Source: Alphaproteobacteria bacterium (GTDB lineage: Bacteria; Pseudomonadota; Alphaproteobacteria; Sphingomonadales; Emcibacteraceae). Taken from it: a stretch of 64,000 nt of DNA. Where the stretch lies: positions 148,130-212,129 of the forward strand of contig NVTE01000001.1 of assembly GCA_002401455.1 (NCBI GenBank), read 5' to 3'. Under the pieces are notes generated by a model. That model had not been told where the DNA came from. It saw only the letters and a list, made by a program, of their open reading frames with translations, and did not search any database. A program made the position numbers and the translations under genes. Shown piece after piece: positions 39,172 through 42,671 of this stretch. Every line of letters starts with the position of its first letter. Positions within the stretch are counted from its first letter, which is position 1.

Positions 39172-40008
39172 CTACGTCGACGGCACTGACAGGTGATCTA
39201 CGATGTCCCCGTCTGGGGAAAAACACACCGCATTCAAGGCCCCACCCCGGCCACTTCCCCCATCAAGTGTCGCCGTATGAGGATGATTCAGGCGCAGCCC
39301 CTTATTAGCATGATCATAGCCCCGGACAATGCGTGAAAATCCAGAATAGGCGGCGTCAATATGGTCAAAACGACCATTATCCCACCAGAAATTATCTTTT
39401 TGCATGGTTAGGGGGCGTGATACATCCAACGACGCATGGACAAAAAGTATTTTGCCTTCCCGAGTAAAGGCAGCCCGACGCAGACCGCTCAGAAGAGCCG
39501 CATGGCCAGCGTGACTATTGATCACCCGGCGCAGACCACTGGTCCATTTGGAAATTGACAGGGTCCCTTCGCGGGCAATGGCCCGGGCCACAGAAGGCTT
39601 GGTACCATAACTTTCGATAACAGGCCCAAGATAATGGCCCAAAAGCCAGTCCATGACCTCTGACGGGTTAGGAGCGAATTGCAATTGAAGCAGCTTGGTC
39701 AGCATCTCTTCCCGGGCGCCGCGCAAGTAGACAAACGCATTTGGTTTTGACGTCTCGCCCACGGCCATTAATTTTCGGCGCGTCAGAAGGAGTTCGTTTA
39801 ATGTTTGGGTCGCGGTTACCTGATTCCCAAAATAATTTCCCAGATAAACCAGCCTGTCTCCCGCCTGAAAACGGGAAACAAGGTCCTCGTGCAAAGCCTT
39901 CAGGGCCTCGACCTCTCCGTGAATGGCCCCTACAGCCCAGATGCGCTTAGACCGGTCAAGGCAGCCAAATTTTTCCGAATCCATATTTGAGAGATCAGTC
40001 GCATTCAT
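39172..40008 (-). CDS. Degenerate calcineurin-like phosphoesterase (probable pseudo-enzyme)
   Basis: A 278-residue protein with the order of motifs of bacterial PP1-like phosphatases, but with the metal ligands replaced. The usual GDIHG reads VGAIHGE (Asp to Ala28, His30 kept). The GDxxDRG motif reads LGNYFGNQ (Asp58 to Asn, DRG lost), and GNHE reads RGAREE (Asn-His to Ala-Arg). The later VHASLD and RGYDHANKGL regions are recognisable. Without these ligands the two-metal site should not form, so a binding or regulatory role is more likely than catalysis. It is the next minus-strand gene after carD, beyond a terminator. Confidence 0.7.
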   Translation of the reverse strand: MNATDLSNMDSEKFGCLDRSKRIWAVGAIHGEVEALKALHEDLVSRFQAGDRLVYLGNYFGNQVTATQTLNELLLTRRKLMAVGETSKPNAFVYLRGAREEMLTKLLQLQFAPNPSEVMDWLLGHYLGPVIESYGTKPSVARAIAREGTLSISKWTSGLRRVINSHAGHAALLSGLRRAAFTREGKILFVHASLDVSRPLTMQKDNFWWDNGRFDHIDAAYSGFSRIVRGYDHANKGLRLNHPHTATLDGGSGRGGALNAVCFSPDGDIVDHLSVPST

Positions 40009-40060: not shown

Positions 40061-40090
40061 AAAAAGAGCCCCCATAACAGCCAGGCTCTT
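40061..40090 (-). terminator. Terminator of carD
   Basis: On the minus strand AAGAGCC pairs with GGCTCTT around a 16-nt loop, followed by TTTTTC. It separates carD from the phosphoesterase-like gene. Confidence 0.75.
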
Positions 40091-40155: not shown

Positions 40156-40659
40156 TCAGGCAGCCGTCAAAACTTCTGCCAGTTTTAACATGGCATCTTT
40201 TTCAGCAATTTCTTCGACCGCCGCAACCTCACGGGCCAGACGGCTAATGGCTGATTCATAAATCTGTCGTTCGCTATAGGACTGCTCGGTCTGATCCCCA
40301 CCCCGGTGTAAATCCCGCACCACTTCGGCCAGATGAACCAGGTTACCAGAATTTATTTTTGCTTCATATTCCTGGGCACGACGGCTCCACATGGTCCGCT
40401 TCACGCGGGCCCGGCCTTTCAGGGTGGTATAGGCTTTGTCCATGATTATCTGGCTTGACAAACCGCGCATACCAGAAGGTTCGGCCTTGTTTGTCGGAAC
40501 CCGAAGGGTCATTTTTTCACTTTCGAACCGGATAACATAAAGTTCCAGTTTCATACCGGAAATTTCCTGTTCGCTAATTTCTGTAATAACACCCACGCCA
40601 TGCTTTGGGTATACAATATGGTCGTCTACCGCAAAGGCCAACTTCTTTTCTTTCGCCAT
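40156..40659 (-). CDS. CarD/CdnL-family transcription regulator
   Basis: A 167-residue protein. The N-terminal Tudor-like RNA-polymerase-interaction domain reads FAVDDHIVYPKHGVGVITEI and continues to LRVPTNKAEPSGMRGL. The C-terminal helical DNA-binding part contains KRTMWSRRAQEYEAKINSGN and a conserved LAEVVRDLH. CarD/CdnL proteins stabilise open promoter complexes, notably at rRNA promoters. It lies downstream of the fdxA gene with a 412-bp gap, an arrangement common in Alphaproteobacteria. Confidence 0.95.
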   Translation of the reverse strand: MAKEKKLAFAVDDHIVYPKHGVGVITEISEQEISGMKLELYVIRFESEKMTLRVPTNKAEPSGMRGLSSQIIMDKAYTTLKGRARVKRTMWSRRAQEYEAKINSGNLVHLAEVVRDLHRGGDQTEQSYSERQIYESAISRLAREVAAVEEIAEKDAMLKLAEVLTAA

Positions 40660-41071: not shown

Positions 41072-41407
41072 TCAGGTGCCAGCCCCAGGTTTTTCACTTA
41101 ATGCCGCCAGCTTGTTGTCTTCATTCATCACATCATCGGCACCGGGCAAAGGGTCAATCTTTTCAGTAATATTAGGCCAGACCGCCGCATATTTTTCATT
41201 GACCTCAAACCATTTCTCCAAACCGTCTTCCGTATCGGGCAGAATGGCTTCAGCCGGGCATTCTGGTTCACAAACGCCACAATCAATACATTCATCCGGG
41301 TTAATGACAAGCATGTTTTCACCCTCGTAAAAACAATCCACCGGACAGACTTCAACACAGTCTGTATATTTACATTTGATACATGCCTCAGTAACCAAAT
41401 AGGTCAT
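41072..41407 (-). CDS. fdxA: 7Fe ferredoxin, FdxA type
   Basis: A 111-residue protein from the ATG at 41407, preceded by AAGGAGA; a six-residue longer frame is less likely. [29 protein letters not shown] and [16 protein letters not shown] carry the cysteines for one 3Fe-4S and one 4Fe-4S cluster, the CxxxxxxC spacing being typical of 7Fe ferredoxins. The C-terminal helix ([16 protein letters not shown]) is also diagnostic. It is a soluble electron carrier; its partner enzyme is unknown. Neighbouring carD is a conserved association. Confidence 0.95.
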
Positions 41408-41539
41408 GGCGTTCTCCTTATACAATCACCCAGAACAAAACCTGCTCCTTCACACAAACTGCATATAACATCTCACGAACATGATACAACCAAAAAAACG
41501 TCAAAGCCGGCTCTTTTTTAGAAGAATAATGCCCAAATA

Positions 41540-41998
41540 CTAGTTTAAGCCCAACCGAGCTTTGACTTTTTTCTTAATCTGACCACTCTGCTTATCGGAA
41601 ATATACAGCAGACCGGTCACCCGGCGCAGAAGATTGCTTTCATAGAGGTCTTCCTTGCCATCGGCAAAAACCACTTCCCACATCAGCTCCAGGATATGTT
41701 GCCGCCCGGCCTCATCAAAATGGTCCTTTATTTTACGGGTAAAGCTCAGAATATGGTTCGCGTCATTCTGGGTCGCGATCGCTTCGACAAAAAGTTCTAA
41801 CGCTTCCGCTTCGGACAGGCCCAGTTTATTTTCCAGAAGATGCAGGATATGCTCGCGCTCCACCCGGGATATTTCCCCATCATGGGCCGCCACCTCGACC
41901 ATCAGGACGGCAGCCGCCAGTTTTTCATTTTCAACCTTTTGCGGCGCCTCAACGGGGCTTTCCTTGAGCATATTGCTCAGACGTTTCAAAATAGACAC
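41540..41998 (-). CDS. TerB-family (tellurite-resistance-like) protein
   Basis: About 152 residues from a GTG at 41998 that follows AAGGAA and gives MSILKRLSNML. A longer frame to 42103 runs into the TetR gene and is not supported. The core (VAAHDGEISRVEREHILHLLENKLGLS, then a second half with FADGKEDLYESNLLRRVTGLL) has the two acidic D-G-E/D-G-K loops of TerB domains, thought to bind metal. It is widespread beyond tellurite resistance, and no other ter genes are present, so that phenotype is not inferred. It lies 28 nt after the TetR gene. Confidence 0.85.
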   Translation of the reverse strand: MSILKRLSNMLKESPVEAPQKVENEKLAAAVLMVEVAAHDGEISRVEREHILHLLENKLGLSEAEALELFVEAIATQNDANHILSFTRKIKDHFDEAGRQHILELMWEVVFADGKEDLYESNLLRRVTGLLYISDKQSGQIKKKVKARLGLN

Positions 41999-42026
41999 GG
42001 CTATAGTTCCTTGTTGTAAAAAAATG

Positions 42027-42671
42027 TTATGTCTTAACCAGTGAATTGCAGAAGAATTTGACCACCTGTTCGGCAATTTGGTTCCGATCACCAAAATTCT
42101 CAAAATGATCTTCTCTCATATGCTCCATCATGGACTGGTTCATCAACAGAACCGTAAGGCCGTGAACCATGGACCAGATTCCAAACTGGGCCACTGACGG
42201 ATCAAGCTTTCGGGCAGACGGTAAAGCCAGACATTCATTTACCGTTTCCTGCAAATATCTAAAACTATTATCAGAAACATCATGAAGGGCGCAATATTTA
42301 TTGTAATCGGCCAGTTCATATTCGAACATAACCTTAAAGTGGGCCGGATAAACTTCCGCGAACTGGACATAACTCATGCCGAGCTTGAAAAGACGATCCA
42401 AAGGGTCCTCCTCAGTCGACATCAATGCCAGCATGCCTTCGCCAAGCTTACACAGACCTTCTGCCTTCAGCACCGCAATCAGGGCTTCCTTATCCTCAAA
42501 ATGCCGGTAGGGGGCCGTCTGGGACACGCCAGCCCTCCGCGCCAGTGCCCGCAGGCTCAGGTCGGCTAAAGTGCCCTCTTTCAAGATATCCAATGCAGAC
42601 TCAATCAATGTCTCGCGCAGATTACCATGATGATATGATTTTTTGCCCTCAGGACAAGGTTCTTTATTCAA
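42027..42671 (-). CDS. TetR/AcrR-family transcription regulator
   Basis: About 214 residues from a TTG at 42671 placed 6 nt after GGGAG; an ATG at 42716 with no ribosome site is the alternative. The helix-turn-helix (LRALARRAGVSQTAPYRHFEDKEAL) is preceded by the KKSYHHGNLRETLIESALDIL helix, characteristic of TetR members with a WHG-type C-terminal ligand domain. It may repress the downstream TerB gene or its own promoter; the target is not shown by sequence. Confidence 0.9.
   Translation of the reverse strand: MNKEPCPEGKKSYHHGNLRETLIESALDILKEGTLADLSLRALARRAGVSQTAPYRHFEDKEALIAVLKAEGLCKLGEGMLALMSTEEDPLDRLFKLGMSYVQFAEVYPAHFKVMFEYELADYNKYCALHDVSDNSFRYLQETVNECLALPSARKLDPSVAQFGIWSMVHGLTVLLMNQSMMEHMREDHFENFGDRNQIAEQVVKFFCNSLVKT

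Follow-up and report, generated by a model that had tools for sequence, protein, structure and literature searches.

The locus described here raises the question of why a gene whose product is predicted to have the fold of a PPP-type phosphatase, but not the metal site of such an enzyme, should be found beside carD. The window, by which we mean the whole 64,000-nucleotide stretch of alphaproteobacterial DNA that was analysed, contains this gene, referred to here as X, together with the neighbours and motifs collected in Table 1. Its product could be a phosphatase copy in decay, an enzyme with a rebuilt site, or a pseudoenzyme that is retained for some other task, with or without a connection to the genes around it. 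We consider that X is a PPP-type pseudophosphatase kept by selection as a binding protein, whose likeliest partner would be found in the CarD/RNA-polymerase/sigma-factor or stress-response machinery, and we assign this reading a probability of about 0.6.

The assembly that harbors X is 2.08 Mb in size and 69% complete. The named relatives closest to the protein come from metagenome bins of Emcibacter or of other Alphaproteobacteria (77-81% identity), and next is an Emcibacteraceae bin at 51% identity. A second match to X within its own genome has an E-value of 0.26 and, because of that value, was treated as chance.

Table 1. Features of the X locus, with coordinates in the window
Feature	Coordinates	Strand	Basis or remark
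X, 278-aa predicted PPP-fold protein, metal site gone, proposed pseudophosphatase	39172..40008	-	uninterrupted ORF, predicted fold, 164 distinct relatives aligned
Motif 6, LDGGSGRGG (canonical IDTGAYxSG)	39241..39267	-	Asp249 kept
Degenerate motif 5, RGYDH (canonical HGHT/S)	39310..39324	-	ligand His replaced by Tyr231; preceding His replaced by Arg229
DxFWW, family-specific (canonical D-(L/M)-W-I-R)	39382..39396	-	Asp205, Trp208, Trp209
Motif 4, FVHASLD (canonical FVHAG)	39424..39444	-	metal-ligand His191 kept in X of the source genome
Degenerate motif 3, LRGAREE (canonical L-GNHE)	39706..39726	-	Asn replaced by Ala98; His replaced by Arg99; Glu100 kept
Degenerate motif 2, GNYFGNQ (canonical GDY-DRG)	39820..39840	-	D2 replaced by Asn58; second D replaced by Gly61; R not conserved
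Degenerate motif 1, GAIHGE (canonical GDIHGR)	39913..39930	-	D1 replaced by Ala28; His30 kept
Candidate terminator-like hairpin with T-run, between carD and X	40061..40090	-	sequence reading and scan
carD, CdnL-type RNA-polymerase-binding factor	40156..40659	-	PF21095 and PF02559; 147 nt upstream of X
fdxA-type ferredoxin, beyond carD	41072..41425	-	PF11953 and Fer4 models
TerB-domain gene, upstream of fdxA	41540-42103	-	TerB also recurs at other class loci

Predicted fold and the former metal site

At E<=1 neither Pfam nor NCBIfam has a model that fits the protein of the source genome, and PF00149, which is matched by all four canonical relatives tested, is matched at E<=0.01 by none of 76 diverse X members. 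The NCBIfam model PRK00166 (Ap4A hydrolase) is weakly matched by 15 of these 76 at the same threshold, with a best value of 2.5e-5. As the family is not identified as phosphatase-like by either Pfam or NCBIfam, its members are likely to be annotated as hypothetical proteins. The AlphaFold2 model, built from a 16-row family alignment, has a mean pLDDT of 92.2 and a pTM of 0.91, and its structure matches, obtained with Foldseek and VIA-align, include 2qjc (Z 20.6, rmsd 2.6, 199 aligned), 5vjv (Z 20.6, rmsd 3.3, 222 aligned), the PnkP phosphatase 4j6o (Z 20.1, rmsd 3.0, 216 aligned), lambda phosphatase 1g5b (Z 18.1, rmsd 3.4, 209 aligned) and the ApaH protein 9ojd (Z 17.6, rmsd 3.0, 201 aligned). 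The 50 PDB matches listed are all PPP, ApaH-type or related phosphatases, with Z from 15.7 to 20.6. As modelled, X has a PPP-type, calcineurin-like alpha/beta fold. The X-family profile also reaches canonical metallophosphatases, with E down to 6e-15, and by this value and by predicted-structure Z scores of up to 20.6 the likeness to phosphatases is not due to chance.

Enzymes of the PPP type bind their metals through six ligands, which are in order Asp, His, Asp, Asn, His and His. The positions of X that we take to correspond to the first four of these ligands fall within motifs that the preliminary description had already picked out as VGAIHGE (residues 26-32), LGNYFGNQ (56-63) and RGAREE (96-101), and all three are present in the protein. 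That description held both their order and their spacing to be preserved; the order stands, as in an alignment with 14 canonical relatives these segments fall opposite GDIHG, GDxxDRG and GNHE, and the spacing is interrupted by an insertion of about ten residues between motifs 2 and 3. Its statement that all core metal ligands are replaced goes too far by two, because His30 and His191 remain, although the other four are indeed lost (to Ala28, Asn58, Ala98 and Tyr231).

The same pattern extends through the 164 distinct X proteins used for the motif tallies, 163 of which contain the motif 1 column. The Asp of motif 1 is kept in none of these 163, its place being taken by A, S, C, P or T, and His30 is present in 138; GD-H-G is found in all 14 canonical relatives. 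At the first Asp of GDxxDRG, 157 members have N, 6 have G, 1 has S and none has D, and the second Asp is G (Gly61) in 163 of 164. The Arg column of DRG is mixed in X, whereas it is invariant in the 14 canonical relatives. At GNHE, the Asn is present in 4 and the catalytic His in 2 of the 164, while Glu100 is invariant and is followed by Glu101 in 160. The motif 4 His occurs in 97 members and is otherwise N, S, A or P, residue 231 is His in 4, and the Thr of motif 6 is G or A. The replacement patterns GNxxG and RGxxEE are themselves conserved across the family, as are Arg229 (151 of 164), Asp249 (155) and the DxFWW residues Asp205 (156), Trp208 (161) and Trp209 (160), of which the first two are specific to X and Trp209 is common to the canonical group.

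No X member retains more than three of the six ligands, and 17 of the 164 retain none. The equivalent of His30 is the sole ligand kept in 45 members. The two surviving His residues, of GDxH and HA, occur together in 88 (86 with just these and 2 with a third), and for that reason a subset of the family may have a weak mononuclear metal site. The metal-binding Asp, Asp and Asn on which active PF00149-type enzymes depend are not maintained in the family, nor are the catalytic His and the phosphate-binding Arg, and X likewise lacks the intact two-metal site needed by ApaH and Ap4A hydrolases. The GDxxDRG aspartates are described as coordinating metal, and changing them as disrupting activity (PMC10317984). 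To judge from its residues, X very probably carries out no classical PPP catalysis.

Extent of the family and selection on it

Profile searches divide the proteins sharply. Within the class, 162 of 385 genomes gave a match at E<=1e-5, comprising 134 at E<1e-40 and 28 that match only at E>=3.8e-11. The strong matches span 63 family codes, in a list compiled by hand from the match table, and all 14 of the weaker-match loci that were read encode intact canonical motifs (GDIHG, GDxxDRG, GNHE, HA and GHT). At the level of the order, matches at E<=0.1 were obtained in 63 of 147 genomes, 30 of them at E<1e-60, together with two fragments at contig edges (G104 and G101). A search of 398 genomes across the phylum found matches at E<1e-90 confined to genomes labelled as belonging to the class of X or nearer; the out-of-class matches reach at best 2.8e-19, which by E-value alone lies within the range of the canonical relatives. 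No viral relatives of X were found, and the plasmid matches, at 24-32% identity, are annotated as metallophosphoesterase or Ser/Thr phosphatase, apart from one of nine in one search that is unannotated. Weak recurrent matches in the sister family f6, which are 114-aa frames with a stop, had been candidates for X remnants; three genomes were re-examined and the matches were rejected as chance antisense frames, since they have no profile match and overlap reading frames that are conserved on the opposite strand.

A tree built with the motif columns removed separates 40 X proteins, drawn from 76 aligned, from 14 canonical proteins on one branch with an SH-aLRT of 100, so that on these sequences the X family is monophyletic. 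All 14 homologues with a full metal site that were read lie on the other side of this branch, and none was seen beside carD in the loci inspected. The preliminary description had named close homologues with full metal sites as the observation that would mark X as simply decaying, and no such homologues appeared.

The view that X is a decaying phosphatase copy in the source lineage draws on the loss of catalytic residues and on the absence of X from some close genomes, as it was matched in 12 of the 16 genomes of its own genus and in the remaining four no match was obtained at E<=0.1. That view is hardly credible, and we regard decay or a sequencing artefact as ruled out, because the same losses are seen in all 164 distinct members, which come from many alphaproteobacterial families, and because dN/dS is 0.04-0.21 by the Nei-Gojobori method in 19 close pairs (of 20 pairs at >=85% identity, 19 have a finite dS). 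The homologues moreover have open frames, with identities of 30-100% to the source-genome protein. The earlier suggestion that selection acts on the fold is thereby strongly supported.

The altered positions rank with the best-conserved columns of the alignment, with Gly57 and Glu100 invariant, Asn58 at 96%, Gly61 at 99% and Glu101 at 98%. Residues specific to X, defined as present in at least 90% of 76 X proteins and in fewer than 20% of the canonical group, include Trp24, Asp51, Asn58, Gly61, Arg77, Arg96, Glu101, Trp155, Thr156, Gly168, Asp205, Trp208 and Arg229, and many of these fall inside the degenerate motifs.

One of the genomes of the genus without a match at E<=0.1, G057, is 99% complete and may represent a recent loss; it could serve as a natural knockout of X.

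Genomic neighbourhood

In the window, carD is adjacent to X, as first described; it is the next gene upstream and lies on the same strand, and an outer-membrane efflux gene begins 187 nt downstream. Neighbours were counted at 134 class loci, taking as denominator the loci with enough flanking sequence (for carD, at least 1.3 kb upstream); a table based on ORF clusters was set aside, as antisense ORFs in GC-rich DNA muddy its counts. On this basis carD precedes X on the same strand at 102 of 125 loci and fdxA is upstream at 69 of 94. A sigma-32-like gene is found downstream at 48 of 128 loci, in 47 cases on the same strand. A representative of this neighbour carries sigma-70 regions 2, 3 and 4, and its naming as sigma-32 or rpoH is our own reading of a gene with sigma-70 regions. 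An S4-domain gene occurs upstream at 30 of 74 loci and a helicase at 25 of 74. TerB also recurs upstream, at 26 of 93 class loci.

The gap between carD and X has a median of 133 nt and is 50 nt or less in 21 of 115 cases. When gaps of 40-400 nt were scanned, with order-level loci included, a terminator-like signal was present in 77 of 122, compared with a fraction of 0.10 in mononucleotide shuffles. These signals suggest that X probably often has its own transcript, apart from that of carD. The hairpin in the window is given as only a candidate because the lowest-energy fold of the 71-nt carD-X stretch pairs differently.

The association of the two genes is not fixed in either direction. No carD is in view at 18 of 134 X loci, some of which are contig ends, and in 15 of 17 tested genomes without carD beside X it was located elsewhere. 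In four genomes of one family (L098, L154, L157 and L165) X lies between an ffh-rpsP-rimM-trmD-rplS block and a dapF-mtaB-ftsY block, and at two loci unlinked to carD (L083 and L114) the sigma-32-like gene is nevertheless found after X. A separate arrangement is seen in genome G238 (L164, L244), where an unusually divergent CarD, 43% identical to that of the source genome, is encoded away from X, and X follows fdxA directly.

Conversely, carD is present in 32 of 35 genomes that were selected because X, or a strong match to it, is absent, and lineages without X thus keep carD, so that X is not required for CarD function. Among 30 carD loci of genomes without a strong X match, no X-like ORF was found at E<=10, nor any close relative with intact sites. 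The fdxA-carD(-rpoH) order mostly persists at such X-less loci. At nine of them (L200-L202, L204, L209, L215, L221, L224 and L225) the sigma-32-like gene follows carD directly, at about 860-990 nt from centre to centre, which would fit either a clean loss of X or its absence from the start. Comparison of loci presents X as a removable but long-retained module. CarD residues 107, 73 and some others also differ between genomes with X and genomes without it (144 versus 29 sequences); these differences are confounded with phylogeny and were not taken as evidence of co-variation.

Proposed role and relation to known systems

The rebuilding of the former site with conserved residues implies a role in binding. 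In outline, the two-metal catalytic site would have been lost once, before X diversified within the Alphaproteobacteria, with the PPP scaffold kept and newly conserved residues built into what had been the active-site face. X would then act by binding and perform no PPP chemistry, with the likeliest binding site being the remodelled face, whose X-specific residues include Trp24, Asn58, Gly61, Glu101, Asp205, Trp208 and Arg229. The likeliest partner would belong to the CarD/RNA-polymerase/sigma-factor or stress-response machinery, and X may tune a transcription programme for growth or stress, as an accessory that binds a protein or senses a small molecule. It is the location of the gene that suggests a partner in the CarD/RNA-polymerase/sigma-32 system, as the link between CarD and X is positional only. 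The idea, proposed from the single locus, that X signals or binds near transcription genes gains from the class-wide fdxA-carD-X-(rpoH) order and loses from the terminator-like separation and from the loci where X is elsewhere. That X acts on the CarD/sigma module can be put forward only tentatively, and it is doubtful that this class-wide, Pfam-invisible PPP pseudophosphatase is a dedicated regulator of CarD, RNA polymerase and sigma-32 whose remodelled site, free of metal, would bind a protein or a nucleotide.

X might also be a pseudoenzyme in a passive neighbourhood, carried along with core genes that form a stable block and employed elsewhere, for instance in RNA, translation or redox processes. 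The long carD-X gaps with their terminator-like signals would fit such an arrangement, as would the mixed content of the block, which also holds fdxA, the S4-domain protein, the helicase and TerB, the alternative position of X between the ffh and ftsY blocks, and the persistence of carD without X. We nonetheless think it rather unlikely in view of the recurrence of carD upstream on the same strand at most class loci and of the sigma-32-like gene that stays with X at two loci where carD does not. A different possibility is that X remains an active enzyme with a rebuilt metal-free or mononuclear site, formed from His30/His191, Glu100/Glu101 and Asp249. Some other supposed pseudoenzymes have proved active, Asn58, Glu101, Asp205 and Arg229 are newly conserved in or near the old motifs, and Glu100, Asp249 and His30 are invariant or widespread; set against this are the absence of any conserved ligand set, many members having His30 alone or no ligand, the variable Arg of DRG and the lost catalytic His of GNHE, which make such an enzyme improbable.

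No account of the X gene, nor of a bacterial family of PPP pseudophosphatases, was found in the open PMC literature; as subscription papers lay outside that search, X is new in the sense of new to the openly searchable literature. CarD/CdnL, a general RNA-polymerase factor, is described as present in virtually all alphaproteobacteria (PMC5324124), its regulation in these bacteria is being worked out (PMC11034885), and the accessible passages of Caulobacter CdnL papers do not mention a phosphatase-like neighbour of carD. X is an uncharacterised conserved protein in around one third of the sampled genomes of the class, usually beside carD, with a predicted phosphatase shape and a uniformly dismantled catalytic site, and would be a new component to test.

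The nearest sequence relatives found are the canonical alphaproteobacterial PF00149 Ser/Thr-phosphatase-like metallophosphoesterases (L174-L187). They share with X the motif order, W121, Y134, H169, Q203, D249 and a number of G positions, but all 14 keep GDIHG, GDxxDRG, GNHE, HA or HG, and GHT/S, and they are encoded away from carD in the loci seen and occupy the separate branch. Among known structures, the putative diadenosine tetraphosphatase 2qjc and the bacterial ApaH 9ojd resemble the predicted fold, whereas X is without their D1, D2, Asn and catalytic His. The Rhizobiales-like phosphatase 2 of 5vjv is also similar in fold, at 18% identity, and differs in having GDIHG and GDYCDRG intact in the profile-aligned stretch.

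In its sequence and modelled structure X resembles a pseudophosphatase, with a predicted phosphatase fold, lost metal and catalytic motifs and a gene under selection; background on such proteins is given in PMC10211241. The closest parallel is PfPPP8 of Plasmodium, called by its authors in 2023 the first pseudophosphatase of the PPP family (PMC10317984). PfPPP8 is like X in having a PPP domain in which the GDxxDRG aspartates are replaced, the first by Asn in both proteins, and in being conserved in related species. It is described there, however, as a eukaryotic protein in which GDxxDRG alone is altered and the positively charged residues of the other motifs remain, whereas X represents a bacterial family in which D1, D2, the Asn and the catalytic His are lost throughout or nearly so, and it would add a bacterial case to the PPP-type pseudophosphatases.
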